DNA of 64,000 nucleotides, taken from assembly GCF_000143985.1 (NCBI RefSeq), contig NC_014364.1, forward strand, positions 744,001 through 808,000, given 5' to 3'. Below the pieces are notes generated by a model. That model saw only the letters and a program-made list of their open reading frames with translations. It was not told where the DNA came from and made no database searches. Shown in pieces: positions 19,084 through 37,721 of this stretch. Both the position numbers and the translations under genes were made by a program. The stretch comes from Sediminispirochaeta smaragdinae DSM 11293 (GTDB taxonomy: Bacteria; Spirochaetota; Spirochaetia; DSM-16054; Sediminispirochaetaceae). The first letter of the stretch is position 1. Each line of letters begins with the position of its first letter.

Positions 19084-19896
19084 ATGAAAAAAACATTACG
19101 CATTATCTGTTATGTTCTGGTGGTTTTTATCTGTAATCTGCCGCTCTTGGCGACGATCGCAACCTCTCTAAAAACGCCTGCCCAAATATCCGCTTCCCCT
19201 CCGCTCCTTTTTTTTAAGCCGACTCTTGCCAATTATGCCGAGGTCCTCACCTCGCCGTCACTTCATTTTGGGACATACCTGAGAAATAGTTTCGGTCTCG
19301 CACTTCTTGGTACACTGTTTTCAATCCTCCTGGCCCTTCCGGCGGCCTACGGGATGGTCCGCCATGGTGTCGGAAAGAAATTCCTTCTGCCCTTTGTAAC
19401 CAACCTTCGGACCTTCCCCTTGATTATCTTTGCCATCCCCTTTTATTTTATGTTCCAGTCGGTCGGCCTTTTGGATACGGTTCTCGGTCTGGCGATTTTA
19501 TCCTGTCTCATTAATCTCCCCCTTGCCCTGGTGGTGCTGCTGAGCTTTTTCCAGGATTTGCCCATCGAACTTGAAGAGGCTGCCTTCGTGGACGGCGCTA
19601 GCACATTTCAGACCATGCGGATGATCATCCTTCCGCTTGCGACAACCGTCCTTGCGTCGGTCTCGGTACTTAGCTTTATCTATGCCTGGAATGAGTTTTT
19701 ATTTGGGCTTATACTCACAACAAAGGTAGCGACTCCCGTTACGGTTGGGGCGACGTTTTTTATTACTTCTTTTGGTATCCGCTGGGGACAGACCGCTGCG
19801 GCCATTACCTTGAGTATACTGCCTCCAATGTTTATCGGTGTTTTAAGTTTCCGCTATCTGACGAAAGCCCTCCTGTCGGGAGCCATTAAGGGATGA
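19084..19896 (+). CDS. Carbohydrate ABC transporter permease (MalG type)
   Basis: A 270-residue six-helix permease. The EAA motif is ELEEAAFVDGAS...ILPLATT near residues 160-185. It starts two bases after the previous permease stop, and its own stop overlaps the ROK regulator start (ATGA). The transporter therefore comprises one binding protein and two permeases, with no ATPase gene nearby. Confidence 0.9.
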   Translation: MKKTLRIICYVLVVFICNLPLLATIATSLKTPAQISASPPLLFFKPTLANYAEVLTSPSLHFGTYLRNSFGLALLGTLFSILLALPAAYGMVRHGVGKKFLLPFVTNLRTFPLIIFAIPFYFMFQSVGLLDTVLGLAILSCLINLPLALVVLLSFFQDLPIELEEAAFVDGASTFQTMRMIILPLATTVLASVSVLSFIYAWNEFLFGLILTTKVATPVTVGATFFITSFGIRWGQTAAAITLSILPPMFIGVLSFRYLTKALLSGAIKG

Positions 19897-21143
19897 GAAA
19901 AGAGAGTTCGATGAAAAAAATGAACGACCTGTCGCTGCTGCGAAGGCAGCGGTCGTCGGAAATTCTGCGATTCATTCTTGCAAACGGCGCCATGACCCGA
20001 TCCGAGATCGTGGCATGCACCGGCTACACCATGGCCTCGGTCATTAAATACACCCAGTTTCTTGTTGAATCGGGGGTTCTTATGCAGGAACCCGGTGGCA
20101 GCGGCCGAACTCTCTCCTTCCGCATTGCCACCGGCCTGGGAAATGTCGTCGCCATCGTCGTCGGCAGGACGATTCAGGCTATTTTGGTAAATCCCCATGG
20201 GGTGGAATTGTGCTCTTCCGACAAGATTCCTTTTGAATCGGATATCTCTCCCGAGGCCTTTCTGGCCGTTATCGATCAGGTGATCGGTCAGGTTAAACAG
20301 CGGCATGCGTCGTCGAAAGGGGGAGATATGCGGGCCATTGCCATCGGCTTGGCAATCGGCGGCTATATCAATCCCCGTAAGGGAATTTCCCACAGCTTCT
20401 ATGCCTCGAAAACATGGCAGGAGTTTAAGATAACCGATGCCATCGGCTCTGCATACGGTATCCATACCTTTATGATGAACGACGCAAATGCAGCGGTATT
20501 GGGAGAGAAGTATTACGGCGACGGAAAGGCCTTTGAAAACATGCTGCTCCTGTGGCTTGGCGAAGGAACCGGTTTGGGCTTGCTCTTGCAGGGGGAGCTT
20601 TATACCGGGGCGTCGTTTTACGCCGGGGAAATAGGCCACACCAAGACGGAGCTCTCCGATGAGCTTTGCTATTGCGGAAAAAACGGCTGCCTTGAGACCG
20701 TAACCTCGGAATCAAACCTTATTCGCTCGTTCCGGAATATGATCGGCAGCGTGGTCAACTCGGGTGGCATCATCCATCATCAAGATGGCGCGGAAGATGT
20801 CACCATCCAAACCCTCATCAATCTTGCAAATCAGGGCGATCGCTTTGCGCAAAAGGTCTTTACCTACGCGGCAAAGGCCCTTGCCGCAAAGCTTGCCGAT
20901 ATCTGTAATGTTCTCAACCCCGAGGCTCTGCTTTTTCGCGGTCCCATCATCGACGGTAATCGATTTCTGTTCGATGCCGTCGAACATGAGTTGCGTCCGC
21001 TTCTGCTTTCTCCCATCGATTCCGCTCTCACCCTGAGCTATAATACCGGAAGTGCTTCTCCCATCGGCAAGGGGCTTTCCGCCGCAGCCCTGCTTCAGAT
21101 ACTCGGAGATACGACTCCCGAGTCGGAGGGAAGCGGCTTGTAA
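19893..21143 (+). CDS. ROK-family transcriptional regulator (NagC/XylR type)
   Basis: A 416-residue regulator. Residues about 20-75 form a winged helix-turn-helix (ILRFILANGAMTRSEIVACT...). The remainder is the ROK sugar-kinase-like domain with LWLGEGTGLGLLL, EIGHTK and the zinc motif CYCGKNGCLE. The start overlaps the permease stop; an internal ATG at 19911 with GAGAG upstream is an alternative. Being last in the ABC operon, it likely senses the transported sugar or its phosphate and autoregulates this unit. Weak helices in the DNA-binding domain do not suggest decay. Confidence 0.88.
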   Translation: MRKESSMKKMNDLSLLRRQRSSEILRFILANGAMTRSEIVACTGYTMASVIKYTQFLVESGVLMQEPGGSGRTLSFRIATGLGNVVAIVVGRTIQAILVNPHGVELCSSDKIPFESDISPEAFLAVIDQVIGQVKQRHASSKGGDMRAIAIGLAIGGYINPRKGISHSFYASKTWQEFKITDAIGSAYGIHTFMMNDANAAVLGEKYYGDGKAFENMLLLWLGEGTGLGLLLQGELYTGASFYAGEIGHTKTELSDELCYCGKNGCLETVTSESNLIRSFRNMIGSVVNSGGIIHHQDGAEDVTIQTLINLANQGDRFAQKVFTYAAKALAAKLADICNVLNPEALLFRGPIIDGNRFLFDAVEHELRPLLLSPIDSALTLSYNTGSASPIGKGLSAAALLQILGDTTPESEGSGL

Positions 21144-21250
21144 GCCGATTCCTACAGGAGCGGATAAAGGAATCCGACATAAACCTACATGGCCGTCTGA
21201 TATGAAAATCTCATAGATGCTTTACCATCGATGACGTTGGTGAGGTATGC

Positions 21251-22720
21251 ATGAGAAATATTATCTGTGTTGATATCGGAAGTTCGCACATAAGTACCGG
21301 AGTCCTGCTTGAAGAGGGGGAGCTCGTGGCTGCCGCGGACATGGAGATACCGCTCATACGCGGCAGCAGCGGTGTTGTCGAATATGATCCCAATCAAATC
21401 TGGGGGCTCACCCTTTCCTGTATACGGGATTCTCTTCGTAAACTTGAATCAAAACACAAAAGCGATATCGCGGCGATCTCCGTGTCGAGCATGGGAGAGG
21501 TCGGCTTCCCCGTTGCACAGGATGGCACCCCTTTGTCCACCGCAATCAGCTGGATGGACCGCAGGGCCAGGGAACAGGCGAAGAGGCTTGCCGGTGATAT
21601 CGGTAGTGAAGAGCTTTTTCGGATTACGGGTATGCCCCTTGATTCGATGTTTTCGATCCATAAAATCCTGTGGCTCAGGGAACATCAGAAAGAAATTTTC
21701 ACATCCATGCACAAATGGGTATGTATCGCGGATTATATAAACTATAAGCTCGTCGGCGCCTTCTTTACCGATTACACCATAGCCTCCAGAACCATGCTTT
21801 TCGATATCACCGATTACCAGTGGTCGGCGCCGCTCCTCTCCTATACCGAGCTGAGGACCGATCAGCTTTCCGAACCCTGTATGCCCGGGACGGTAATCGG
21901 AAATATGAAAAGCGAGATCAAAGAAGCTTTGCATCTGGACGGTACGGTGGCCGTTGTCCTGGGAGGGCACGATCGGAGCTGTATTGCCGCAGCCATGGGG
22001 ATCGACAACAAGAATCAGATTATCGATTCGACGGGAATCGGTGAGGGGCTTATCAGCGTTACGGATGAGCGGTTCATACCGCCGAACATCAAGGAGAGCA
22101 ACCGCTTCTCCTGCTATCCGGGCTTTTTGGATCACAAGTATATCACCCTCGGCCATTTCGGGAGCGTCGGGCGATTGGTGAACTGGATCACCGATCAGTA
22201 CAGCATCAAGGACTTTATTGCGCACCGAAACCTGGAATCACCGATATATATCCCGAACACCTTCGTAAATAACAACTACCTGGAAAAGAGAATCTGGTTC
22301 GACTTAACCCCCCGCTCCACTCCCGAAGAGATCACCTACAGCATCTACGAGGGAATATCCTTCAATTTCAGGCAGATACTGGAACTCTACTGTAAAGAAT
22401 ATTCGGTACAGCACTATTCAATCTTCATGACAGGAGGAATGACCAGAAACGATGTTTTTACCCAGCTAAAGGCGGACACGCTGAATCACGCCATACTCAT
22501 TGATGTGGAGAATGTGGCCACCCTCATCGGGGTGGGAAAGATTGCCTTTCTCGGTACGGGAATATACCGGGACTGGGAAGAGATAAAAGCGACCATCCAG
22601 CCCAGCTTTGTCAAGGTTCATCCCCAGAAAGAGTATGAAGAATACTATCGCCAGCGATATCAGAAATATTACAAACAGGCTGAAAAGCTGAACAAGAGGA
22701 GAAAGGATGCCATACACTAA
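21251..22720 (+). CDS. FGGY-family carbohydrate kinase
   Basis: A 489-residue kinase of the xylulokinase/fuculokinase group. The N-terminal phosphate loop VDIGSSHISTGVLLE, the substrate-region SWMDRRAREQ, and GGHDRSCIAAAMG before the ATP-binding half are visible. ATG 21251 has TGAGG upstream. It begins a seven-gene unit and overlaps the aldolase gene by 14 bases. Together with a PfkB kinase and a class II aldolase in the same unit, it suggests two sequential phosphorylations of a ketose or polyol before cleavage. The exact sugar is not deducible. Confidence 0.88.
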   Translation: MRNIICVDIGSSHISTGVLLEEGELVAAADMEIPLIRGSSGVVEYDPNQIWGLTLSCIRDSLRKLESKHKSDIAAISVSSMGEVGFPVAQDGTPLSTAISWMDRRAREQAKRLAGDIGSEELFRITGMPLDSMFSIHKILWLREHQKEIFTSMHKWVCIADYINYKLVGAFFTDYTIASRTMLFDITDYQWSAPLLSYTELRTDQLSEPCMPGTVIGNMKSEIKEALHLDGTVAVVLGGHDRSCIAAAMGIDNKNQIIDSTGIGEGLISVTDERFIPPNIKESNRFSCYPGFLDHKYITLGHFGSVGRLVNWITDQYSIKDFIAHRNLESPIYIPNTFVNNNYLEKRIWFDLTPRSTPEEITYSIYEGISFNFRQILELYCKEYSVQHYSIFMTGGMTRNDVFTQLKADTLNHAILIDVENVATLIGVGKIAFLGTGIYRDWEEIKATIQPSFVKVHPQKEYEEYYRQRYQKYYKQAEKLNKRRKDAIH

Positions 22721-23549
22721 CTTGAACGAGGTTCTTCGCCACGGCAAGGAACACGGCTATGCAGCCGGAGCCTTCAATGTCGTCAACATGGAGATGATCC
22801 AGGCGGTCATCGATTGTGCGGAAAAAAACGGAGTCGGCGCCGTGGTGCAGATTTACTGGGAGAACGACCTCGACCATCTTACGAAGCACTATGCGGTTGC
22901 CATGACGAAGGCCGGTGCGGAGAACGCATCGGTTCCTATTGCCCTGCAGCTTGATCACGGCTGTGAAACCGAACTGTTGAAAGGCTGTATCGATGCCGGA
23001 TTTTCATCGGTCATGGCCGATTTCTCGGCTCATCCCTACGAGAAAAATATCGAACTGACACGAGAGATTGTCGAATATGCGCATGCGAAAGGCGCTACCG
23101 TTGAGGCCGAGCTGGGGCAGATCGTTTTGGGAACCGAGGGCAAAGATGAGATTTCGTCGCATATGACGGACCCTGCCATGGTTTCCGACTTTCTCGAAAA
23201 GACAGGCGTTGATGCCCTGGCCGTTGCGATCGGCACAGCCCACGGGGTCTATTCCGAGACGCCGGTGATCGATTTCGAGCGGCTGGAGAAGATTTTGTCC
23301 CTGGCTTCGAAACCAATTGTTGTCCATGGCGGATCGAAGGTTCCCGATGAAGATGTAAAGCGAATGGCTCGCCTTGGCATCAGTAAACTCAATATCGGCT
23401 TTGATCTCATGAATGCATTTCAGCAGTCAATAAAGGAAACGACGAAAACAAAAGACTTTGTTGCTCCTGTCGAAATCTTTTCCGCGGGAAAAGAGGCAGT
23501 GGCCAAGGTCCTTGATCATAAAATCAGTCTGCTCTCTTGGCAAAGATAG
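22707..23549 (+). CDS. Class II (zinc) ketose-bisphosphate aldolase family protein
   Basis: A 280-residue TIM-barrel aldolase of the fructose/tagatose-bisphosphate class. Active-site pieces are in order: LQLDHG (acid/base Asp and zinc His, near residue 80), VEAELG (Glu), IGTAHG (zinc His), VVHGGS (zinc His) and LNIGFDLMNAF near the C-terminus. It overlaps the FGGY kinase gene, so translation is coupled. It probably cleaves the bisphosphate made by the FGGY and PfkB kinases to dihydroxyacetone phosphate and an aldehyde. Confidence 0.88.
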   Translation: MPYTNLNEVLRHGKEHGYAAGAFNVVNMEMIQAVIDCAEKNGVGAVVQIYWENDLDHLTKHYAVAMTKAGAENASVPIALQLDHGCETELLKGCIDAGFSSVMADFSAHPYEKNIELTREIVEYAHAKGATVEAELGQIVLGTEGKDEISSHMTDPAMVSDFLEKTGVDALAVAIGTAHGVYSETPVIDFERLEKILSLASKPIVVHGGSKVPDEDVKRMARLGISKLNIGFDLMNAFQQSIKETTKTKDFVAPVEIFSAGKEAVAKVLDHKISLLSWQR

Positions 23550-23573: not shown

Positions 23574-24863
23574 ATGAAAAGACTTTGTCTGATGGCGATG
23601 TTTGCCCTCCTGTGCATCTCTTTTGTGATTGCAGGTGGGAAGCAGGAACGTGATGGTGTCGTCGAGCTCGAATTCTGGATGCGAGATACTCGTCCGTCGA
23701 ATGTCGAGGCAATGGATCTGATCGTCGAGTCGTTCGAACAGCAGCATCCGGGAATCAAGGTGAATGTCGTTCTGACTCCATGGGACAGTGTGGAACAGAA
23801 GACCATGACGGCCATAGCGGCCGGAACACTTCCCGATCTTTCGCAGCTCAATCAGACCGGAGCCGCGGACTACGGAGAGAAGGGGATTCTCCTGAACCTT
23901 GACGACGAACTGAAAAGTTGGGACAGGCTCAACGACATATGCGGAGTCAGCGTTTCCCAGGCCAAGTACAATGGCGAATTCTATGCAATTCCTTGGTTCG
24001 CCGGTTCCAATGTCATGTTCTACAACAAGGATCTTTTCATCGAAGCCGGAATCGTTGATGCCGACGGCAATGCCGCGCCTCCGAAAAACTGGGAAGAGTT
24101 TCTTGCCGATGCGAAAAAACTGACGAAGGATACCGACGGCGACGGTGTCGTCGACCAATGGGGATTCGTGACACGGGGTGATGTCTCCCTTACCATTCCC
24201 ATCAGGGAGTTTATGCTTGCCGCAGGGGACGGGGAATGGGTCGATTCCAACCGGAACGTTATCGTAGACAGCAAGAAGAATCTTGAAGGGCTCAACTTTT
24301 ATCTTGATCTCTTTCAAAGATACAAGGTTGTTCCACCCGATACCCCTTCGGTAGACTATGTGGGCGAAGAGCAGTACTTCCTTTCCGGGAAGGTGGCCAT
24401 GATGTTTAACGGCCCCTGGAACCTTGGGAACATGTATGATTCTTCGGTCAATTGGGGTGTTGCTCTCGAACCGAAACGGGAGAAGAACGCCTGTCACATC
24501 GGCGGCTGTCCCGTTGGAATTTTCAATACCACGGAGCATCCGAACGAGGCATTGCTTTTTGCAAAGTATCTGGTCTCGGATGAGGCCCAGAAGATCTGGG
24601 CGGTCGATATGGGCAATGGCCTTCCCGTTACCCAAAAGGCACAAGAGCTTGCGAAACAGGATCCCGTTATCAAGGTGTTTGTAGAGAGCCTCCAGGCCGC
24701 GGACGCAGACAATGTCACTCCTCCGCCGCAAATACCGGAATGGGTTTCTATAGAACGCTCGGTTGCTCCGCCGATTTTTCAGAGTGCACTTCTTGGAGAG
24801 ATTACAGCGGAGGCATGCCTTGCGCAGCTTCAGAGTGCAATGACCGCAGCCCTGAACGAATAG
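23574..24863 (+). CDS. Sugar ABC transporter solute-binding protein (family 1)
   Basis: A 429-residue exported binding protein preceded by AAGGAG. The signal peptide ends SFVIA and the mature protein begins GGKQE, with no lipobox Cys. Family features include VNVVLTPWDSVEQKTMTAIAAG and MFYNKDLFIEAGI. It precedes a hairpin, a damaged permease gene and an intact permease gene. If the first permease is truly broken, this protein may deliver its sugar to another transporter or be non-functional. Confidence 0.9.
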   Translation: MKRLCLMAMFALLCISFVIAGGKQERDGVVELEFWMRDTRPSNVEAMDLIVESFEQQHPGIKVNVVLTPWDSVEQKTMTAIAAGTLPDLSQLNQTGAADYGEKGILLNLDDELKSWDRLNDICGVSVSQAKYNGEFYAIPWFAGSNVMFYNKDLFIEAGIVDADGNAAPPKNWEEFLADAKKLTKDTDGDGVVDQWGFVTRGDVSLTIPIREFMLAAGDGEWVDSNRNVIVDSKKNLEGLNFYLDLFQRYKVVPPDTPSVDYVGEEQYFLSGKVAMMFNGPWNLGNMYDSSVNWGVALEPKREKNACHIGGCPVGIFNTTEHPNEALLFAKYLVSDEAQKIWAVDMGNGLPVTQKAQELAKQDPVIKVFVESLQAADADNVTPPPQIPEWVSIERSVAPPIFQSALLGEITAEACLAQLQSAMTAALNE

Positions 24864-24883
24864 CAGGAGAGGCTATGATGTAT

Positions 24884-24921
24884 GCCGACTCTCCCGTCGT
24901 TTCTTTCGGCGGGAGAGCGGC
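24884..24921 (+). promoter_or_regulatory. Hairpin between binding-protein and permease genes
   Basis: GCCG-A-CTCTCCCG (24884-24896) pairs with CGGGAGAG-CGGC (24910-24921), with one bulged A and a 13-base loop. No T-run follows. It matches the hairpins after the other binding-protein genes in this window. Confidence 0.6.
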
Positions 24922-24930
24922 TTTACCGAA

Positions 24931-25610
24931 ATGATTATGAATGGCAAACACAATTACTACGAAACGAATTACAGGCTCTTTTTGCTGCCTATAGTTCTGA
25001 TAATGCTGACAAGCATTCTTATTCCGATCGTCAACACCGTACGCTACTCGTTCCCTGGATGCTTCCGGGGGCCCTTGCGGCCATCATGTGGAAATGGTTG
25101 TATCACGGCTCGGTCGGGCTGATAAATCAAATGCTTTTACGTATGCATATTATTAGCGCCCCCATCCCCTGGCTGGCAAGCACGCAGTTTGTGCTCATCT
25201 CCGTTGTGTTGGTGAATGTCTGGCGGGGGGCTCCCTTTTTCATGGTGATGCTCTTCGGCGGCCTGCAGACCATTCCGAACGAACTCTACGAGGCGGCAAT
25301 GATAGACGGTGCAGGGAGCTTTACCTCGTTTCGCAATATCACCATACCGTTGCTCAAGCCCTTGATCCTGACCCTCAGTCTCTACGGCTTTATCGGAGCC
25401 TTCAATTTCATCGATATCATTCTTGTCCTGACAAAGGGAGGGCCTGCCCATCATACCCTGACCCTTCCCCTTTATGTGTGGCAGCTTGCTTTTGTCGACA
25501 TGAAGATAAGCTATGCGACAGCCGTTTGTGTTCTTATGTGCCTCTTCCTTGTTGTACTTCTTGGTATCATGATGTTGTTTCTCAAAAAAAGGGGAGGAGC
25601 TGATGAGTAG
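24931..25610 (+). pseudogene. Carbohydrate ABC permease gene with internal deletion and frame change
   Basis: The N-terminus of a MalF/UgpA permease begins at ATG 24931 or 24937 and runs through its first helix (FLLPIVLIMLTSILIPIVNTVRYS). After about 40 residues the frame becomes nonsense. The rest of the permease continues in another frame from about 25038 (RTLLVPWMLPGALAAIMWKW...) to the stop at 25610, including the EAA loop ELYEAAMIDGAG. About 75 residues normally present (first periplasmic loop and second helix) are missing. The shared bases at 25038-25053 encode NTVRYSF in one frame and RTLLVPW in the other, as if a deletion joined two short direct repeats. An N-terminally truncated product is the alternative. 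Confidence 0.78.
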
Positions 25611-26445
25611 TACCAAAATGAAACGCTTCTTCTCTTCAGTGGGTGTGAACCTGTTGGTGGTCCTGGCCCTGCTCTTTATCCTTACCCCTGTGATCTGGCT
25701 TTTTTTAACCTCGATCAAGACCCGGTCCGAGATGTTCCAGACCCCGATTACCCTGTTTCCAAAGACTTTCGATTTCGGAAACTACGTGAAGATATGGGAA
25801 AAGATACAATTCGGCACCTTTATAAAAAACAGTCTGATCATGTCGCTCTATAATACCGTCGTCACCCTTGCGATAGCTTCCATGGCAGCCTACTCTCTTT
25901 CCCGTTATACCTTCAAGGGAAAGGATTTTTTTCTCCGCTATTTGCTGGTCTCCCAGATGTTTCCCGCGGTGTTGGTCCTTATCCCCCTTTTCCTGATGGT
26001 AAAACGGATCGGGCTTTTAGGAACCTTTACCGGGCTGGAGATATGCTACCTGACAATAACAATCCCGTTCTGTACCTGGGCGTTGAAAAACTATTTCGAT
26101 AAAATCACTCCAACGATAGAAGAATCCGCGATGATCGACGGTTGTTCCTTTATCACCTCATACATAAAAATCTTTCTTCCCGTTGCCTTGCCCGGACTGG
26201 TATCGGTAGGAACCTACTGTTTTCTTTCATCGTGGAATGAATATCTGTTTACGGTGGTCTTCATGCAGACTCAGGATACCTGGACGCTGCCTGTCGGCCT
26301 GGCGGCTCTTAGTGGCCAGTTCGCATTGGACATGGGTCTGTTGACGGCAGGCGGTATCATCAGTCTTGTTCCGGCTGTGATCATCATGCTGTTCTTACAG
26401 AAATATTTACTTGAAGGAATGTTGGCAGGATCTGTAAAGGAATAA
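25603..26445 (+). CDS. Carbohydrate ABC transporter permease (MalG type)
   Basis: A 280-residue intact permease with six helices. The EAA loop is TIEESAMIDGCS...IFLPVALP near residues 168-195. Its start overlaps the end of the damaged permease gene by eight bases. It is followed two bases later by a PfkB kinase gene. Without an intact partner it may not form a working transporter. Confidence 0.88.
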   Translation: MSSTKMKRFFSSVGVNLLVVLALLFILTPVIWLFLTSIKTRSEMFQTPITLFPKTFDFGNYVKIWEKIQFGTFIKNSLIMSLYNTVVTLAIASMAAYSLSRYTFKGKDFFLRYLLVSQMFPAVLVLIPLFLMVKRIGLLGTFTGLEICYLTITIPFCTWALKNYFDKITPTIEESAMIDGCSFITSYIKIFLPVALPGLVSVGTYCFLSSWNEYLFTVVFMQTQDTWTLPVGLAALSGQFALDMGLLTAGGIISLVPAVIIMLFLQKYLLEGMLAGSVKE

Positions 26446-26447
26446 GC

Positions 26448-27401
26448 ATGAGTGAAGTAGTAAGCATCGGGCAGATCATTACGGATATACTTGTCCGTCC
26501 CGTGGAAGCGGTCGATTTTCGGGTCGATACGCAGGAGGTTGAAACAATTCAGTTGAATACCGGGGGAGACAGCTTCAATGTCGCGGTTGCCCTTTCGAAA
26601 TTGGATGTCGACGTGGCTTTCAACGGAAAAATCGGTACCGATATCTTCGGCGAACTGCTCATAGGCAGGATCAAATCCTGCGGCATCGATAGCTCGGGGC
26701 TGGTTGTTGCAGAAGGCGATTCAACCAGCTCTTCCGTGGCGTTGATCAGGAAGAACGGCGAACGCTGCTTTCTCTTCTATCCGGGGGCCAATAATCACCT
26801 TGGAATCGAGGATATTAAGTGGGATGCCATTGATAATGCGAAAATTGTCCATGTCGGGGGGCTCTATACCCTGCCGCTTTTGGATGGTGAGAATGTGGCG
26901 AAGATACTCCGGTATGCGAAAGGGAAGGGGAAGCTCACCACCGTGGACGTTTCCTGGGATAGAAGCAACAGATGGTTCAGCGGAATTCGGGAGAGTCTTC
27001 CCTATATCGACTATTTTTTGCCCAGCTATGGTGAGGCGAAAGAGATCGCCCAAAAGGATAGTCCCGAGGAAATTGCCCGGTTTTTGCAGTCAGCCGGTGC
27101 AAAACATGTCATAATAAAGCTAGGAAACGATGGCAGTTATGTGAAGCCTGCGGGCTCCGATGGTTATGTTGTTGCTCCTGTGGATTTTGGAGAGGTCGTC
27201 GATACCACCGGAGCCGGTGATTCCTATGTCGCCGGATTTATTCGCGGCTTACTGAATGGATGGGACCTTGCGGCGTGCGCCCTCTTTGCGACGGTGGTTG
27301 CCGGAGAGAACATCAGAAAGATAGGTGCAACGGCAGGAATCCCTGCCTATCATGATGCCCTTAAACGATACAAGGAAGAGTTGGGAAAACGAACGCCGTG
27401 A
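26448..27401 (+). CDS. PfkB-family carbohydrate kinase
   Basis: A 317-residue ribokinase-fold kinase. The N-terminal GGDSFNVAVALSKL motif (residues about 37-52) and the C-terminal anion hole and catalytic base DTTGAGDSYVAGF (about 247-259) are both intact. It starts two bases after the MalG-type permease, and its stop overlaps the GTG of the response-regulator gene (GTGA). In this unit it probably adds the second phosphate to a sugar phosphate before aldolase cleavage, like 1-phosphofructokinase or tagatose-6-phosphate kinase. Confidence 0.88.
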   Translation: MSEVVSIGQIITDILVRPVEAVDFRVDTQEVETIQLNTGGDSFNVAVALSKLDVDVAFNGKIGTDIFGELLIGRIKSCGIDSSGLVVAEGDSTSSSVALIRKNGERCFLFYPGANNHLGIEDIKWDAIDNAKIVHVGGLYTLPLLDGENVAKILRYAKGKGKLTTVDVSWDRSNRWFSGIRESLPYIDYFLPSYGEAKEIAQKDSPEEIARFLQSAGAKHVIIKLGNDGSYVKPAGSDGYVVAPVDFGEVVDTTGAGDSYVAGFIRGLLNGWDLAACALFATVVAGENIRKIGATAGIPAYHDALKRYKEELGKRTP

Positions 27402-28018
27402 AAATAGCACTGGTAGATCACTCGCCGTTTATCAACTATGCTCTCACAAATCTGCTGACTGAGAGCTTCTCTTCCGTCGCCTTTATCGATTGTCATACCG
27501 GTGAAGGCGACGTTTTCGATGAGCTGCGGGAGTGTGATCTTATCATTATGGAGTTGATCTTTCGTTCCTGCAGCGGGCTTGAATTCATCAAATCCCTCAG
27601 GGACCATGAGATTGATATTCCGATTCTTGTATTCACCATGCAGAACGAGGAACACTTTGCCGAGCGTTCCCTCAAAGCTGGTGCCACCGGTTATCTTATG
27701 ATGAGTTCCGCTATCGAAGAGATTGGCTATGCCCTGAAAACGGTCCTGAATCGGCGATGCTATGTAAGCAGAAATATTGCGGAAAAGATGGCCGACCGCC
27801 TCCATGGCACCGGCGGCAATATGCCTATCGAGAGGCTTTCCGATCGGGAATTGCAGGTGCTCTTGCTGCTGGCATCGGGAATCAGCAACAGTGACATAGC
27901 GCAAAATCTCTGCCTTAGCCCCAAAACCGTGAGTACCTACAAATCCCGAATCATGGAAAAGATGGATTTCCACAACGACAAGGAAATCCTGCTCTATTTT
28001 CTGAACCAGAAAGTCTGA
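27398..28018 (+). CDS. NarL/LuxR-family response regulator with non-canonical receiver
   Basis: A 206-residue protein starting at GTG 27398, overlapping the PfkB stop. Residues 1 to about 115 form a receiver domain, and about 147-195 a LuxR-type HTH (LSDRELQVLLLL...NSDIAQNLCLSPKTVSTYKSR). The receiver is atypical. The phosphoacceptor position is Glu52 (DLIIMEL) instead of Asp, only one N-terminal acid remains (VDHS), and the conserved Lys is Met102 (GYLMMSS). The switch Thr80 is kept. No histidine kinase gene is nearby. It may work without phosphorylation and bind another signal, perhaps controlling the sugar operon it ends. Confidence 0.85.
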   Translation: MKIALVDHSPFINYALTNLLTESFSSVAFIDCHTGEGDVFDELRECDLIIMELIFRSCSGLEFIKSLRDHEIDIPILVFTMQNEEHFAERSLKAGATGYLMMSSAIEEIGYALKTVLNRRCYVSRNIAEKMADRLHGTGGNMPIERLSDRELQVLLLLASGISNSDIAQNLCLSPKTVSTYKSRIMEKMDFHNDKEILLYFLNQKV

Positions 28019-28038
28019 AATCCTTCCCCTGCTTCTCC

Positions 28039-28785
28039 TCACGCTCTAAAAATAAGTGCCTTTATAAAAATGCTGAAGCCTCCTGCCATAAAGATCGCAA
28101 TGATGACACGGCGTATCGCCTGTTCGCTGAGCTTCTTATCAATCACCGATCCTAAGGTGAATCCGGAAGCCATGCCGGGCAGTGCCGCAAGGACCAGCAT
28201 CATTACGCTTTTTGTCAGAAGTCCGCTCACGATATACGTGACAATTCTGAAGATATTTTCAATCAGGAAGACAAAACAAATATTCCCGCGAAAGGCTTGA
28301 CGGTTTTTGCTTGTCCGTTCGATGTAGGCTACAAAGAAGAGATTGATACCATAGAGACCAGCGGTGATACCAGAACAAAATGAAACGATTCCCAGGATCA
28401 CTTTATTCGGGTGCATCGTTTTCGTCCGGTCTCTCGTTATCATCTCTATACCGATACCGATGACAAGTATGCCCAGGAAGGCCTTAAGAAGCCAGGAGCT
28501 TGCATACTTTAGCAGCATTGTACCGGGGATAATCCCGCAGAGAATGCACAGGATGATGAACAGGGAGGTACGGATCGAAAAGGCCTTACGATTTTGCCAG
28601 GACATATATGCATTGACCGGAGTAGCGAGACAGAGATTGAGCGGTGAGATAACCGAATTGTCCATTGTCATCGATAGAAGCGGGGTCGAAATAAGGGGAT
28701 CCCCGAAACCGGCAAGGCCTTTGATAAAATAGCAGACAAATTCTATAAGGAAAACAAAAATATATAATTCAACTGTAGAGTTCAT
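28039..28785 (-). CDS. TauE/SafE-family membrane transporter
   Basis: A 248-residue membrane protein with about eight hydrophobic segments in two repeats. The N-terminal FLIEFVCYFIKGLAGFGDPLI and the second-half SFCSGITAGLYGINLFFVAY segments match the TauE/SafE (DUF81) pattern. Members export sulfite, sulfoacetate or other small organic anions. It lies 30 bases downstream of the XRE-cupin regulator on the same strand and the two probably form one unit. The substrate is unknown. Confidence 0.85.
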   Translation of the reverse strand: MNSTVELYIFVFLIEFVCYFIKGLAGFGDPLISTPLLSMTMDNSVISPLNLCLATPVNAYMSWQNRKAFSIRTSLFIILCILCGIIPGTMLLKYASSWLLKAFLGILVIGIGIEMITRDRTKTMHPNKVILGIVSFCSGITAGLYGINLFFVAYIERTSKNRQAFRGNICFVFLIENIFRIVTYIVSGLLTKSVMMLVLAALPGMASGFTLGSVIDKKLSEQAIRRVIIAIFMAGGFSIFIKALIFRA

Positions 28786-29882: not shown

Positions 29883-30707
29883 ATGTGTGACTGGAGTTAT
29901 TCACTGTCAAGTGCCGATTCTGCACCCGATTCCGCTCCGATTTTGTTACGAGGGGGAATCTGTTCGAATCTTGAGGTTGCTTCGATGCTGGGATATCAGG
30001 CGATCGAAATACATACACGGGAAGATGCACTTCTTGATTATACGAGGATCGCCGAAACCGCCTCCCGGTACAATGTTACCATTTCCGCGGTTGTCACGGG
30101 GCGCCTGAATACCCAGGGAGATGTAAGTCTTATTGACGACAGGCCCTATGTTACCCAAAGCGCTTTGGCCGGTATGCGCTCCTACATAGAGATGGCCGCT
30201 CATCTTAAAACCAATCTGATTATAGGCTGGCTCAAAGGGCGTATCCCCGATGGGGCCGACAGAACCTTGTATTTGGATCGTCTGGCCCGGAATCTCCGTC
30301 TTATCTGTAAAGAGGCGGAGGAGAAGGGGGTCAAGGTTTTTATCGAGGTCATTAATCGGTACGAGGTGAATATTTTCACTACGGCTAAAGAAACCGTGGA
30401 GTTTCTTGATGCCTGGGATATTCCCAACTGTTATGTCCACCTGGATACATTCCATATGAACATCGAGGAAGAGGACCCCATTGATGCAATTCACGTTTCA
30501 GGAGCCCGCCTCGGCTATTTCCACGTGGCGGACAACACCCGTTTCTATCCTGGAAGCGGCACCCTCGATTTTACTTCGTATTTGTCTGCACTAAAAGATA
30601 TTAACTATGCCGGCTTTATATCTGTCGAGTGTCTGCCCGTTCCCGACGGAAAAACCGCGGCAAAGAAGGCATTGGCATATCTGAAGAACATAGAAAAGGA
30701 AATATGA
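29883..30707 (+). CDS. iolO: TIM-barrel epimerase, IolO-like (5-keto-L-gluconate epimerase family)
   Basis: A 274-residue xylose-isomerase-like TIM barrel. The sequence pattern agrees closely with what I know of Thermotoga IolO: DWSYSLSSADSA at the start, LRGG after it, MLGYQAIEIHTRED, FIEVINRYEVN, LDTFHMNIEEEDP, GYFHVADNTRFYPGSGTLDF and SVECLPVP near the end. Metal-ligand candidates are Glu in IEVINRYE, Asp/His in LDTFHM, His in FHVADN and Glu in SVECLP. In the Thermotoga myo-inositol route IolO converts 5-keto-L-gluconate to D-tagaturonate. It is the first gene of the operon, directly behind the operator. Confidence 0.78.
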   Translation: MCDWSYSLSSADSAPDSAPILLRGGICSNLEVASMLGYQAIEIHTREDALLDYTRIAETASRYNVTISAVVTGRLNTQGDVSLIDDRPYVTQSALAGMRSYIEMAAHLKTNLIIGWLKGRIPDGADRTLYLDRLARNLRLICKEAEEKGVKVFIEVINRYEVNIFTTAKETVEFLDAWDIPNCYVHLDTFHMNIEEEDPIDAIHVSGARLGYFHVADNTRFYPGSGTLDFTSYLSALKDINYAGFISVECLPVPDGKTAAKKALAYLKNIEKEI

Positions 30708-30719
30708 GGAGGAGCATTC

Positions 30720-31916
30720 ATGCGCGCATTTTATGTTGAGGCGGAGTTCGAACCTAAGCCGGGATACAAGCTTTCTGAAAGAGAGTTGAGTACAAGGCGT
30801 GCGGCAAGGGGAAATTCTGTTTGGAAGAATATACGAGGTTCGGTCACCGATCGCCCCGATCCCCATCCTAAAGACGATGAGGTTTTAATCAAGGTGGGGG
30901 CTGCCGGCATTTGTGGGACGGACGCACATCTGCTGCTTAAAGATGAAGAGGGGTACACCAAGTATGATGGGCATAGCAAGTACCCGATCATTACCGGGCA
31001 TGAATTTTCCGGCGAAGTCGTTGAGCTGGGTTCGGCTGTTCACAGCCTGAAGCTTGGTGATTTGGTCAGTGTCGAATCCATGAATTGGTGCGGCGAATGT
31101 GATGCTTGCCGAATGGGTATGTTTAATCAATGCAAAAACCTTGAAGAGCCCGGCCTAACCTTTGATGGCGGTTTTGCAGAGTATGCAGTGGTCAGGGCCA
31201 AATACTGCTACCTCCTGAACGACATAGTGGAATTCTATGGAGATAACATGACGGCCTTTGAATTGGGGGCCATGATTGAGCCTACCGGGGTTGCTTACAA
31301 CGGTTTATTTGTGAGAGGTGGTGGCATTCGTCCCGGAGGGCATGTGGTTGTTTTTGGTGCCGGACCGATAGGCCTTGCCGCAATTTCCCTCATGAAAACC
31401 AGTGGTGCTGCTAAGCTTATCTGTTTTGAAACCACGGAAGAGAGGCGGAAGCTGGCGCAAGAGTGTGGGGCCGACTATGTCTATGACCCTATCGCATTGG
31501 GAAAAGAGGGAGTGAATCCGTCGGAAGTGCTGATGGATCTTACTAAAGGTAGAGGCATTGCCTTATTTGCCGAATGTTCCGGGGCGACGAATGCCACCTA
31601 TCCGGTAATGGCTGGGGCACTTGCCATTGGCGGGAAAACGGTTCAAATCGGTCATTCTCTTGGAAAAACAAGTATCGATTTATATCCCTACATGTTTAAC
31701 GCCGGTGGCATCAGTGGTTCCAACGGGCAGTCCGGGCAGGGAATCTATAGCGATGTGATTGCTTTGATGGCAAGCGGCAGGATCGATATGCGTAAAATGG
31801 TAACCGGCAGGGTGCACCTTGAAGATATTCAGACTGGACTTGATCAGGCTGCTGACCGCATTTCCGGAAAAATATTAGTCAGCATGAATTATAAGAATTA
31901 CGGAGGTAACAGGTAA
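30720..31916 (+). CDS. Zinc-dependent medium-chain dehydrogenase, candidate scyllo-inosose dehydrogenase (IolM-like)
   Basis: A 398-residue MDR dehydrogenase, longer than usual because of an N-terminal extension (residues 1-45). Catalytic zinc ligands are in GICGTDAH and GHEFSGEV. The structural zinc loop is CGECDACRMGMFNQC. The NAD(P)-binding glycine motif is VVFGAGPIGLAAI. It lies between the IolO-like and creatininase-fold genes and overlaps the latter by one base, the order expected for IolM of the Thermotoga inositol pathway. The length also fits better than that of the second dehydrogenase at 32957. The assignment to IolM rests on context. Confidence 0.75.
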   Translation: MRAFYVEAEFEPKPGYKLSERELSTRRAARGNSVWKNIRGSVTDRPDPHPKDDEVLIKVGAAGICGTDAHLLLKDEEGYTKYDGHSKYPIITGHEFSGEVVELGSAVHSLKLGDLVSVESMNWCGECDACRMGMFNQCKNLEEPGLTFDGGFAEYAVVRAKYCYLLNDIVEFYGDNMTAFELGAMIEPTGVAYNGLFVRGGGIRPGGHVVVFGAGPIGLAAISLMKTSGAAKLICFETTEERRKLAQECGADYVYDPIALGKEGVNPSEVLMDLTKGRGIALFAECSGATNATYPVMAGALAIGGKTVQIGHSLGKTSIDLYPYMFNAGGISGSNGQSGQGIYSDVIALMASGRIDMRKMVTGRVHLEDIQTGLDQAADRISGKILVSMNYKNYGGNR

Positions 31917-32893
31917 TGTCAAAATGGCAAATCCCGGCAAAGGGTGGACATATGGAAAAGAATACCGGTGTCTACTATCAGAACATGACGAACAAAGATG
32001 TGGAAGAACGTCTTGAAAAGAATGACGTAATCCTGATTCCGGTAGGTTCTACGGAAAATCATGGAGCAAATGCTCCTTATGGTGAAGATACCTACCTCGA
32101 TACCAGGCTCTGCGAGCAGGTTGCTCTTGCTACCGGTTGTACCGTTGCACAGCCCATTTGGTATGGTTCTCATCCCTACCACCATCTGGGCATGCCCGGG
32201 ACGATCATGATCCCCGAGGAAACACTGGCCGACTATCTTTGCTACGTGTTTGCAGGATTCTGGAATACCGGTTTCCGGAAAATGATTGTAGTGAATGGCC
32301 ACGGTCAGGATTATGTTATTCCCCTTGCCATTCATAAATTCGGCAAGAAATTTCAGGTACCGGGTATTGTCCTTTACGTGCACTTTTGGAATGCCGCCAG
32401 AAATCCCGAAACGGGATTGACCGATCTTGCGACCAAGGATCAGGGCGGTGTGTATAATACTCCTTTTGTCCACGCCGACGAGGTTGAACAGTCTTTTGCC
32501 CTTGCCTTGTTTCCCGAGCTCTGCAAACAGGAGAATGCAGTTGTCACCAAGCCCTCTCCCATGCTGCCTCCGGGGCATATCAATAATTCTGCAGAAAACG
32601 GGGTCGGCCCGATTAAATGGTATAATGCTTTCGGCAGTGTCGGTATGGAGTGTATCTGTACTCCGGAAGGGGTCATTGGGGATCCGACCATGGCGGATGC
32701 TGAGAAGGCCCGTGCCGGGGTCGAGCACACGCTTAACTACCTTGAAAAACTGGTAAACGACATCATTACAAAATATCCGGCCGGAAAGTTGCCGCCTATC
32801 GATAAGGTCACGCAGCGCAATCGTGAAGATATCGAAGCCGTAATCAAGGGGCCGACAAAGGGAGGGCGGCATATCTATACGCTTACCTATTAA
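31916..32893 (+). CDS. iolN: Creatininase-fold hydrolase, candidate IolN (diketo-inositol hydrolase)
   Basis: A 325-residue creatininase-family protein. Metal-site motifs are GSTENHGANAP...EDTYLD near the N-terminus, VVNGHGQD in the middle and HADEVEQS after it, with the ligands Glu, His, Asp, His and Glu retained. It starts at ATG 31916 (TAATG junction) with GGAGG upstream. In Thermotoga inositol catabolism a creatininase-fold enzyme (IolN) hydrolyses the ring of 3-dehydro-scyllo-inosose to 5-keto-L-gluconate. Its placement between IolM- and IolO/IolI-like genes supports that role. A creatinine or amide hydrolase is the alternative, less likely here. Confidence 0.72.
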   Translation: MSKWQIPAKGGHMEKNTGVYYQNMTNKDVEERLEKNDVILIPVGSTENHGANAPYGEDTYLDTRLCEQVALATGCTVAQPIWYGSHPYHHLGMPGTIMIPEETLADYLCYVFAGFWNTGFRKMIVVNGHGQDYVIPLAIHKFGKKFQVPGIVLYVHFWNAARNPETGLTDLATKDQGGVYNTPFVHADEVEQSFALALFPELCKQENAVVTKPSPMLPPGHINNSAENGVGPIKWYNAFGSVGMECICTPEGVIGDPTMADAEKARAGVEHTLNYLEKLVNDIITKYPAGKLPPIDKVTQRNREDIEAVIKGPTKGGRHIYTLTY

Positions 32894-32956
32894 GGCCTAT
32901 TAAGGGCTTAGTGAAAAATCTAAAGACAAATAAGAATCTTTTCAGGAGGGTTGTTA

Positions 32957-34015
32957 ATGAAAGCCAACATAGCTTTTCTGCATGGGCCTGAGGATCTTAG
33001 GATCGAAGAGGTGGAACTGCCGCCTCTCAAACCAAACGAGATCCTCATCAAGCTTAAGGCCTGTGGTATCTGTGGATCCGATGTTGAGTGCTACGAGGGG
33101 AAATCTGCAGAGGGCCGCTACGATATAGCTCCCTACACCCCCGGTCATGAATGGGCGGGGCAGGCTGCCGAGGTAGGAAGCGCTGTCACCAGTGTAAAGG
33201 TCGGCAACAAGGTTGTCGGGGATTGTGTGCTTCCCTGCTTCAACTGTGCGAATTGTAAAGATGGCAAAATGCCTTCTGCCTGCCTGAATATGCGCGAGGT
33301 GGGATTTCGGCCCGATTCTCCCGGGGGAATGGGCGAGTACATGATCCTTGAAGAGTGCTATACCCACGTGATTCCAGACGATTGGGCATATGAGCTTGGT
33401 GCATGGGTCGAGACCTTCAATGTAGGCTACTGGGGCGTGTGGGGAAATGGATGTGATCCCGATGCTTCGGATGACTGCGTTATTATTGGTGCCGGACCTA
33501 TCGGTCTGTGTGCTTCAATGGTGTGTAAGACTTCCGGCGCACAAGTCATTGTAGTCGATCCCCTTGCTTCTCGACGGGAGACGATTCTCAAGTACGGAGC
33601 GGATCACACGGTGGATCCGTCCAAGCCTGGATATCTTGACGAGATCCTCCGTTTGACCAATGGCCGTGGGCCGTCTGTGGTTATTGAAGCATCGGGCAAC
33701 GATAACGGCATAGCGTCGCTCTTCGATATTGCGGGACACAGTGCACGGGTTGGATTAATAGGCCACTCCATCGGCCGCAAGGTTCCTGTCGAAATTGGTA
33801 AAACTATCTGGAAAACGCTGAAGATCGCAGGTTCCGGCGGGACGGACAAATGGTTTCCCCGAACCATTCGTTTCCTTTCACGCATTAAAGACAATTATGA
33901 TTTTGCTGCTTTGAATACACATCATTTCAATTTTAAGGATATCCATAAAGCCTTTGATGTCGCATGTCATGATAAGGCAAACGCCCGCAAAGTTATGCTG
34001 ACGTTCGACGAATAA
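32957..34015 (+). CDS. Zinc-dependent sorbitol/threonine-dehydrogenase-like oxidoreductase
   Basis: A 352-residue MDR dehydrogenase. Motifs are KACGICGSDVEC and GHEWAGQ for catalytic zinc, CFNCANCKDGKMPSAC for structural zinc, and VIIGAGPIGLCASM for the cofactor. ATG 32957 is chosen because CAGGAGGG lies six bases upstream; TTG 32951 is too close. It could act on a second inositol isomer or on a later intermediate. It is the second dehydrogenase of this operon, so two oxidations beyond IolG are possible. Confidence 0.85.
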   Translation: MKANIAFLHGPEDLRIEEVELPPLKPNEILIKLKACGICGSDVECYEGKSAEGRYDIAPYTPGHEWAGQAAEVGSAVTSVKVGNKVVGDCVLPCFNCANCKDGKMPSACLNMREVGFRPDSPGGMGEYMILEECYTHVIPDDWAYELGAWVETFNVGYWGVWGNGCDPDASDDCVIIGAGPIGLCASMVCKTSGAQVIVVDPLASRRETILKYGADHTVDPSKPGYLDEILRLTNGRGPSVVIEASGNDNGIASLFDIAGHSARVGLIGHSIGRKVPVEIGKTIWKTLKIAGSGGTDKWFPRTIRFLSRIKDNYDFAALNTHHFNFKDIHKAFDVACHDKANARKVMLTFDE

Positions 34016-34029
34016 AGTTTTTTGTGGTG

Positions 34030-34066
34030 GGGCACTTCCTCATCGATCTACCAAGCGGAAGTGCCC
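34030..34066 (+). promoter_or_regulatory. Intergenic hairpin before iolI-like gene
   Basis: GGGCACTTCC (34030-34039) pairs perfectly with GGAAGTGCCC (34057-34066). No T-run follows. It lies between the second dehydrogenase and the iolI-like gene, at the boundary where the DNA becomes more AT-rich, and supports a start for iolI at 34096 rather than 34024. Confidence 0.6.
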
Positions 34067-34095
34067 ATAATATTCACGTATTAGGGAAAAAGCTA

Positions 34096-34923
34096 ATGAA
34101 ACTGGGTTATAATGAAGCCACTTGCATGAAGCGGTCGACGGTTGAAAACGACTTGGTGCTTTGTGAGAGGTATGGATATGAGTATATCGAACTTCGACTA
34201 GACATGCTTAAAAAATATCTAGAAAAAAATACTCTTGCCGACTTGCAATCTTTTTTTCGTTCCAGCCGTCTTAAACCGTATGCATTCAATTCGATAGAAA
34301 ATATCAATTTTTGTTCTGCCGACCAATGGGATACATTGATTTCGCTTTTTACCTTTGGATGCGAAATTGCACAAGCAATAGGTAATCCTTATCTTATCGT
34401 TGTCCCTACAATGGGAGACGATATGCATAAAAAAAGTAAAGACGATGTATATAGCGACAGCGTTGAGGTCCTAAATAAGCTTGCGGATATTGCTAAGCCT
34501 TACAAGGTAAAGCTTGCTTTTGAGCCTATTGGTGATAAGCGATGGTGTGTACGTAGCCTTGAACAGGCCTTGGAAATTGTTCATGCAGTGGATCGCCCCG
34601 ACGTCGGCGTTGCTTTGGATTCAATAAATCTTTTTCTCTATAACCGACTATCCAATATTGATTCAATTGATGACGTTCCGTTGGATAAACTTTTCGTTTA
34701 TCACGTTAACGATTGTGAAGATCTTCCTTTGGGTGTGTTGGATCACTGCCATCGTCTGTACCCCGGTGACGGAATTATTCCATTAGCGAAAATCAGCGAT
34801 AAACTGCATAAAAAAGGTTACGAAGAGATATGCTCGGTAGAGTTGTTCCGTCCAGAGTATTGGGAACTTGATCCGGAAAAAGTTATTCGAACAGCATCTC
34901 AAAAAGCACAACGATTTTTGTAG
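34096..34923 (+). CDS. iolI: Inosose isomerase-like TIM-barrel protein (IolI)
   Basis: A 275-residue TIM barrel. The start MKLGYNEAT and the line LVLCERYGYEYIELR, plus VYHVNDCEDLPLG and SVELFRPEYW near the C-terminus, match what I know of Bacillus IolI (2-keto-myo-inositol isomerase) closely. This fixes the start at ATG 34096 and not the upstream GTG. IolI interconverts 2-keto-myo-inositol and 1-keto-D-chiro-inositol. The gene is clearly more AT-rich than the dehydrogenase genes before it. It leads directly into the ABC transporter genes. Confidence 0.82.
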   Translation: MKLGYNEATCMKRSTVENDLVLCERYGYEYIELRLDMLKKYLEKNTLADLQSFFRSSRLKPYAFNSIENINFCSADQWDTLISLFTFGCEIAQAIGNPYLIVVPTMGDDMHKKSKDDVYSDSVEVLNKLADIAKPYKVKLAFEPIGDKRWCVRSLEQALEIVHAVDRPDVGVALDSINLFLYNRLSNIDSIDDVPLDKLFVYHVNDCEDLPLGVLDHCHRLYPGDGIIPLAKISDKLHKKGYEEICSVELFRPEYWELDPEKVIRTASQKAQRFL

Positions 34924-34976
34924 TAAAAGGGAATGGCTTATGCTGTTTCCCAAAAAACGGTTGGAGGGTTTTGTAT

Positions 34977-36080
34977 ATGCAAAAGAGAGGAAACGGGAAA
35001 AACTTATTAATGTTTTGTTCATTTGTATTAACAGTATTTTTGTTGTTTGGCTGTACGGAAAAAGAAAGCAATGCTGCTTCTTCCGGACCAAAGGATATTA
35101 AAAACATCAAAGTTGGTGTCTCTGTTGGGCATACACAGGAAGAGCGATGGCAACGTGAAATAGATATGTTTAGAGCGTATGCAAAAGAACATGGCTTCGA
35201 ATTATTAGTTCAATCTGCCGAGAATAATGCACAAAAACAAGTTTCCCAATGCGAAAATCTTATAAATCAAGGGATTGATGTTCTTATCTTACAATCTCTG
35301 GATGCATCTGCCGTTGCTCCTATCATAACTTCTGCTCACGATGCTGGTATTAAAGTTATTTCATATGATAGGTTTGCATTAAATTGCGACTTAGATTATT
35401 ACGTGACGTTTGACTCCTTTAAGGTTGGTGTTACACAGGCCAATTTTGTTATCAACAAAGTCGATAAAGGAAATTTTATTTGGCTCAAGGGTGCAGCGGA
35501 AGATAACAATGCACATCTTGTAGCGGCCGGTCAGAAAAGTGTGTTACAGCCCTATATCGACCGGGGGGATATTAACATCGTTCTCGAACAATGGTGTCGA
35601 GGCTGGGACCCGAACGAGGCCCTAAAGAATGTTGAGAATGGTCTTACGCTGACGAATAACGACATACAGGCTGTTATTGCTTCCAATGACGGAACAGCAG
35701 GAGGAGCCATACAGGCTTTGGCTGCTCAGGGTTTGAATGTTCCAATTTCAGGCCAGGATGCAGATCTTGCTGCTTGCCAGCGTATTGTTGAAGGAACGCA
35801 AACAGGAACTGTGTATAAACCTCTTGCAAAATTGAATCGTGCTGCCATGGAGCTTGCTGTTGCGATTGCGACAGGGAAGGATCCGCAATCCTCAATCGAT
35901 AGTTCGCTTGGAGTATGGACAACTTTGGATAATAACTATAAGCAGGTCGACAGCTTTTCTGTAGATGTTATTGCAATTGATAAGGATAACCTTTACGACA
36001 TTCTAATTGCGCGGGATAAATTTCACACTCTGGAAGAAGTTTATAAGAATCTACCAAAAAGTGAGTGGCCTGAAAAATAG
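34977..36080 (+). CDS. Sugar ABC transporter binding lipoprotein (XylF/RbsB type), probable cyclitol binding
   Basis: A 367-residue periplasmic-binding-protein-like I family member. It is a lipoprotein: the signal ends FLLFGC with Cys26, unlike the other binding proteins here. The mature domain has the two-lobed pattern KVGVSVGHTQEERW, LINQGIDVLILQS and AVIASNDGTAGGAIQAL. ATG 34977 has GGAGGG eight bases upstream. Given the surrounding iolO, iolN, iolI and iolG-like genes, inositol rather than xylose is the likely ligand. A hairpin at 36111 separates it from the ATPase. Confidence 0.85.
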   Translation: MQKRGNGKNLLMFCSFVLTVFLLFGCTEKESNAASSGPKDIKNIKVGVSVGHTQEERWQREIDMFRAYAKEHGFELLVQSAENNAQKQVSQCENLINQGIDVLILQSLDASAVAPIITSAHDAGIKVISYDRFALNCDLDYYVTFDSFKVGVTQANFVINKVDKGNFIWLKGAAEDNNAHLVAAGQKSVLQPYIDRGDINIVLEQWCRGWDPNEALKNVENGLTLTNNDIQAVIASNDGTAGGAIQALAAQGLNVPISGQDADLAACQRIVEGTQTGTVYKPLAKLNRAAMELAVAIATGKDPQSSIDSSLGVWTTLDNNYKQVDSFSVDVIAIDKDNLYDILIARDKFHTLEEVYKNLPKSEWPEK

Positions 36081-36110
36081 CAAATACTTTTAGAATAAAG
36101 GATTATAGGT

Positions 36111-36137
36111 GTGCCTTCCTTGTTTTGAGGGAGGCAC
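36111..36137 (+). promoter_or_regulatory. Hairpin between binding-protein and ATPase genes
   Basis: GTGCCTTCC (36111-36119) pairs with GGGAGGCAC (36129-36137) with one G-U pair and a nine-base loop. It lies in the gap between stop 36080 and GTG 36178 and matches the pattern seen after the other binding-protein genes. Confidence 0.6.
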
Positions 36138-36177
36138 GTATGTTTTTCGACGATACAGAATGAAGGGGAAAGGGTCT

Positions 36178-37716: not shown

Positions 37717-37721
37717 AAGAT

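Follow-up and report, generated by a model that had tools for sequence, protein, structure and literature searches.

Pseudo-receivers, also termed aspartate-less receivers (ALRs), have the receiver fold without its phosphoacceptor aspartate and are commonly joined to a DNA-binding output (PMC12632262, PMC4395418). A 2025 review puts them at several percent of receivers, describes many pseudo-receiver regulators as dimerizing without phosphorylation, with the availability of the protein appearing to be the control in a few cases, and calls the on/off switching of the bacterial members a mystery (PMC12632262). ChxR of Chlamydia trachomatis is reported to work without phosphorylation (PMC4395418, PMC3960148), and the NarL/FixJ-type regulator WhiI of Streptomyces is described as acting as a heterodimer with BldM at BldM Group II promoters (PMC4125116). 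A regulator with the same combination of a receiver fold, a missing phosphoacceptor aspartate and a DNA-binding output is encoded at the end of a sugar operon in Sediminispirochaeta smaragdinae, in a 64-kb window (the whole stretch of DNA analysed, genome positions 744001-808000). Our reading of it, to which we assign a probability of about 0.5, is that it would act independently of a kinase, as a pseudo-receiver regulator whose activity is set mainly by its amount through expression of the operon.

The receiver pocket and the DNA-binding domain

The gene for this NarL/FixJ-type atypical response regulator lies at 27398-28018 on the forward strand, begins with a GTG codon and encodes 206 aa, with the pseudo-receiver at residues 1-~120, a linker, and a LuxR/GerE helix-turn-helix (HTH) domain at residues ~143-206; its GC and GC3 are similar to those of the neighbouring genes. 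The first-pass annotation described the receiver fold and LuxR output as intact, and Pfam recognizes both above its cut-offs (Response_reg, PF00072, residues 3-109, 49.3 bits against 30.2; GerE, residues 146-199, 65.9 bits). An AlphaFold2 model built with ten distant relatives, which replaced a single-sequence model with a mean pLDDT of 59.3, has a mean pLDDT of 87.9 and contains a receiver fold and an HTH; with a pTM of 0.64, the relative placement of receiver and HTH in it is uncertain. Foldseek searches with this model rank full-length NarL-type regulators first (LiaR, VraR, RcsB, EvgA and NarL), with 5hev, 6eo2 and 5f64 among the full-length matches at E < 1e-11; the rmsd is high for most of these because domain placement differs, and the receiver alone matches 3cz5_A with a Z score of 18.8 over 134 residues at 1.9 Å. 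The N-terminal receiver, the C-terminal GerE HTH and the full-length fold matches place the protein in the NarL/FixJ subfamily, with its LuxR-type output. A more specific assignment to the UvrY/SirA/GacA equivalog (NF007018) is rejected: the curated cut-off of that model is 280 bits and the protein scores 106.7.

Alignment with 46 homologues puts His8 at the position of the second acid, Glu52 (codon GAG, 27551-27553, +) at that of the phosphoacceptor aspartate and Met102 (codon ATG, 27701-27703, +) at that of the switch lysine. All three positions are invariant in the comparison (D8, D52 and K102 in 46/46), and the substitutions first noticed in the sequence by itself, Glu for Asp, Met for Lys and the loss of one N-terminal acid, are borne out. 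The homologues are those at loci L003-L041 and L209-L215. Other genera supply 45 of them, and the remaining one, L041, is a paralogue found in the sister species; the window protein, its orthologue L002 and matches without an assigned locus are left out of the count. The codons of H8 and S9 (27419-27424, +) belong to a segment that reads DHSP in the regulator and DDHP in most homologues. Misalignment of the pocket was considered and rejected, as the substituted columns are flanked by the conserved P10 (35/46) and G60 (46/46) and the printed rows have no gap there.

Asp7, G60, Thr80 and Tyr99 are kept, Thr80 standing where 46/46 homologues have Ser. When set against the canonical response regulator pocket (DD, D, T/S, K), the protein retains D7 and T80 and has the other three residues replaced. 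It is recognized by PF00072 and lacks both the phosphoacceptor aspartate and other key residues, which by sequence definition makes it a pseudo-receiver (aspartate-less) member of the NarL/FixJ response regulators. On the grounds of established receiver chemistry, phosphotransfer by the normal route is very unlikely in a receiver without its phosphoacceptor, its switch lysine and the second of its metal-binding acids. The two residues of Y-T coupling that are retained, T80 and Y99, could mean that receiver allostery is still in use.

The two halves of the protein differ in how far they depart from the homologues. Among positions at least 95% conserved in the 46 homologues, the regulator breaks 9/18 in the receiver and 0/11 in the HTH (Fisher p 0.005 to 0.02 by threshold, which assumes independent positions and is indicative only), and when each homologue is left out in turn none breaks more than two receiver positions of this class. 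The other broken positions at the 85% level or above are, by homologue residue, H9, R13, G15, E32, S80, Y87 and G119, all in the receiver; the single one outside it, position 197, is a mild change from L to I. Measured as mean distance in the tree, the receiver lies 2.66 from the homologues, outside their own range of 1.45-2.31, and the HTH 1.87, inside their range of 1.24-2.11. Redox control through cysteine was considered and set aside: Cys is absent from the six commonest homologue residues at positions 32, 46, 58 and 121, but nothing else speaks for the idea.

The sole orthologue found is in a second species of the genus (G001); it is 98% identical, carries the same three residues and has the same neighbours on both sides. 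The search covered 98 relatives and, from the class and the phylum, 394 and 392 genomes respectively, in overlapping sets (handles G000 to G593). In the class and phylum searches no more than 7-8 candidates per genome received full scoring, a number that ought to catch a close orthologue. On whether orthologues share the substitutions, a check proposed by the first-pass annotation, the answer within the genus is that the sister species does and that no orthologue with canonical Asp and Lys was seen; in other genera the search gave no orthologue, the next-best homologues being ~30-40% identical and canonical in 45/45 of those compared. Within the family, the best homologue in G002 (94% complete) is 32% identical, and G003 (68% complete) has none at 1e-15. 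The presence of H8, E52 and M102 in the second species rules out a strain-specific mutation and makes a sequencing error unlikely. With the regulator protein as query, genome_contigs yielded 13 pattern matches, none of them a relative, and a plasmid search gave 1133 records, all below 60% identity, with the ten listed at 33.8-37.2%. Viral-catalogued contigs contain 16 loci (L216-L231) with response-regulator relatives, and the pocket Asp and Lys are present in 10/10 of those aligned.

The genome (4,653,970 bases in one contig) has 102 receiver matches, the regulator included, and by automatic alignment the phosphosite is D in 98, E in two, A in one and M in one, leaving 4/102 without the aspartate. 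The second Glu-phosphosite receiver lies at 3808041-3808373 (+) within a 755-residue open frame and keeps its lysine.

The sugar operon and its surroundings

The regulator is the last gene of a presumed operon, all on the forward strand, in which successive genes overlap or are separated by gaps of 2-24 bases. The first gene encodes an FGGY carbohydrate kinase (21251-22720) and is followed by genes for a class II ketose-bisphosphate aldolase (22707-23549; above the cut-off of TIGR00167 only), an ABC sugar-binding protein (23574-24863), the first ABC permease subunit (24882-25610), a second sugar permease subunit (25603-26445; named by its place and a 30% match to the permease of the upstream cluster) and a PfkB-family sugar kinase (26448-27401). 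The GTG start codon of the regulator lies within the pfkB stop, in a 4-base overlap (GTGA). The two genes had been described as translationally coupled; the overlap is confirmed, and the coupling itself is something that we infer from it. Downstream of the regulator, on the opposite strand, are a TauE-like gene and then an HTH-cupin gene.

The best solved-structure match of the PfkB protein is YdjH (3h49/3in1), and YdjI (6ofu) is on the list of matches of the aldolase, so the pair resembles the ydj cluster of E. coli, whose substrates are higher sugars or sugar acids. All NCBIfam kinase models score below their cut-offs, and no substrate follows from them. At nine loci with PfkB relatives (six in other genera, two in the same genome and one in G001) the aldolase is alongside PfkB in 6/9 and the regulator in 0/9. 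The regulator is also absent from 80 further PfkB-relative loci of genome_contigs (0/80 at E ≤ 1e-6), several of which are short contig ends and most of which hold distant PfkB proteins; the aldolase is present in four of the ten such loci with neighbours listed. Because the regulator is missing from PfkB loci elsewhere and the aldolase is often there, the kinase-aldolase pair would be the older part and the regulator an addition at the level of the genus, judged by its absence from the genomes sampled.

The upstream flank holds a second candidate regulator. A ROK-family gene (19893-21143, +) is the last gene of an upstream ABC cluster and lies immediately upstream of the FGGY operon; the best NCBIfam matches of its product are NagC and Mlc, below their cut-offs, and it is the more usual kind of candidate for sensing the sugar. 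Neither a sigma-70-like promoter nor a terminator was seen between the ROK and FGGY genes (21000-21400), so the upstream cluster and the FGGY operon may share a transcript, whose start may lie farther upstream than the FGGY gap. Around the regulator itself (26300-28200) no sigma-70-like sites were found, against 2.4 (sd 1.5) expected by chance, which is weak evidence and bears on the sigma-70 type only. A search for dyads at 21120-21270 turned up two, of 11 nt (91%) and 7 nt, and no target site, and comparison of the 107-bp gap before 21251 with the sister species is little informative because it differs at two positions only.

No HATPase_c match (E ≤ 0.001) occurs in the window, and there is no receiver besides the regulator. 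Upstream, the nearest HATPase_c match in the genome ends at 682058 (~89 kb away); downstream, the nearest begins at 926778 (~155 kb away), which agrees with the earlier observation that no histidine kinase is near. A partner kinase nearby is usual for a canonical response regulator, although not required, and none was detected within the 64 kb.

The first permease gene is broken in this strain: compared with the sister species, whose copy is open and encodes a 301-aa permease, 226 bp have been deleted near 25046. Two copies of an 8-base repeat flank the missing bases, and the gene is out of frame upstream of the deletion join. Uptake by the operon's ABC system may have been lost in the strain, and with the permease broken the operon may be partly disused. 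Farther downstream, window positions 29883-38900 hold an inositol catabolic set of the Thermotoga type, and then a sugar-type ABC transporter (34971-38900). The set includes an IolO-like epimerase at 29883 (208 bits, below the cut-off of 300), IolM at 30720 (550 bits, cut-off 450) and IolN at 31916 (525 bits, cut-off 245).

How the regulator may act

A switch with a dead pocket and an intact DNA-binding half, placed at the end of a sugar operon, probably works by another route than phosphorylation. From the replacement of the second metal-binding acid, the phosphoacceptor and the switch lysine we infer that the receiver would keep its fold without aspartyl-phosphate chemistry, and that the regulator would act without phosphorylation and without a histidine kinase. 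The observations in favour of this kinase-independent reading are the substitutions, their sharing in the genus, the intact HTH, the absence of a nearby HATPase_c match and the position in the operon. Since no promoter-like site of its own was seen for the gene, which is the last of the FGGY-aldolase-ABC-PfkB series, and since its translation is probably coupled to that of pfkB, its product would accumulate when the operon is on, and its amount would be the main control. The accumulated regulator would bind DNA as it is made; the simplest targets would be the control region of the operon itself or a neighbouring sugar locus, and its role would be one of local feedback or feed-forward.

Alternatively, the protein could be a ligand-gated one-component regulator, in which the former pocket or another surface of the receiver binds a pathway sugar or sugar phosphate and so switches DNA binding. 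We consider this unlikely, though worth keeping in mind. The gene is part of a sugar operon and overlaps a kinase gene, and the 2025 review gives precedents in JadR1 and RedZ, atypical response regulators that bind pathway end products (PMC12632262). However, the PfkB relatives at the 9 and 80 loci described above have no such regulator nearby, and a ROK-family protein is encoded next door; the genomic context argues mildly against direct sugar sensing by the regulator, the idea put forward in the first-pass annotation. A narrower proposal is highly improbable, namely that the dead pocket now serves to bind a sugar phosphate produced by PfkB, the kinase whose gene overlaps that of the regulator; if it were true, the receiver would be a direct one-component metabolite sensor and the pathway kinase would take the place of the histidine kinase.

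It is quite unlikely that the regulator is controlled by a partner, dimerizing with another response regulator of the genome as WhiI does with BldM. That precedent is itself of the NarL/FixJ type and there are 102 receiver matches in the genome to choose from, but no partner is evident at the locus, where the window has no other receiver, and the genome's two other matches to the regulator at E ≤ 1e-15 are 36% identical.

Less probable again is gene decay, with loss of kinase control followed by drift. The greater divergence of the receiver than of the HTH, the broken permease in the same operon of this strain and the confinement of the regulator to one genus are what decay might leave behind. 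Nevertheless, the frame is open in both species, and the codon differences between them (four amino-acid-changing against ten silent) give a dN/dS of 0.11, within the 0.02-0.15 of ten other genes of the neighbourhood (the broken permease left out and the first gene taken in part). The receiver half has four changing and seven silent differences (dN/dS 0.16), and the C-terminal half (86 codons) has no changing and three silent ones. These counts are small, and they fit a working protein with a receiver freed of the constraint of phosphorylation better than a dying gene.

There is little likelihood that Glu52 is a built-in phosphomimetic locking the receiver in its active state, as the first-pass annotation had suggested from the Asp-to-Glu change: in some response regulators a D-to-E replacement is activating, the protein still has T80 and Y99, and Glu is the commonest residue at the phosphosite of aspartate-less receivers (26%; PMC4395418), but the idea is weakened by the loss of the switch lysine to Met102, as the effect is tentatively tied to contacts with T and K (PMC12632262), the change of the ChxR Glu to Asp or Ala is reported not to have abolished DNA binding (PMC4395418), and Glu phosphomimicry has been disproved in some pseudo-receivers (PMC12632262, PMC4395418).

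The protein is small, confidently modelled, kept in two species and tied to a defined sugar operon of an anaerobic spirochaete, and candidate ligands and target promoters are therefore few and testable.

Relation to known response regulators

The regulator has the same domain order as EvgA, LiaR/VraR, NarL and UvrY/SirA/GacA and is similar to them in full-length sequence and in fold. EvgA and LiaR/VraR are phosphorylated, and unlike the regulator their aligned chains have D at the phosphosite.

The regulator adds one more member to the known class of pseudo-receivers, and by published tallies a Glu phosphosite, a non-acidic second acid and loss of the lysine are each common in that class (PMC12632262, PMC4395418). 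Glu, which occupies its phosphosite, is the commonest replacement in ALRs, at the frequency given above (PMC4395418); the second acid is non-acidic in ~80% of pseudo-receivers, and the lysine is kept in ~65-70% of the class and lost, as it is here, in ~30-35% (PMC12632262, PMC4395418). The regulator differs from the class at large in that its gene closes a sugar kinase/ABC operon and in being found in one genus only.

Like the regulator, ChxR has Glu at the phosphoacceptor position, but it belongs to the OmpR/PhoB subfamily (PMC4395418, PMC3960148). WhiI is of the NarL/FixJ subfamily and, as described, is an orphan without the conserved lysine and one of the two acids; those are the losses named for WhiI, whereas the regulator is also without the aspartate (PMC4125116). 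WhiI is furthermore described as the product of a developmental gene with BldM as its partner (PMC4125116), and no partner is evident at the regulator's locus. Proteins such as this are uncommon yet of a known kind, with Glu as the commonest substitution and WhiI as a NarL/FixJ precedent.
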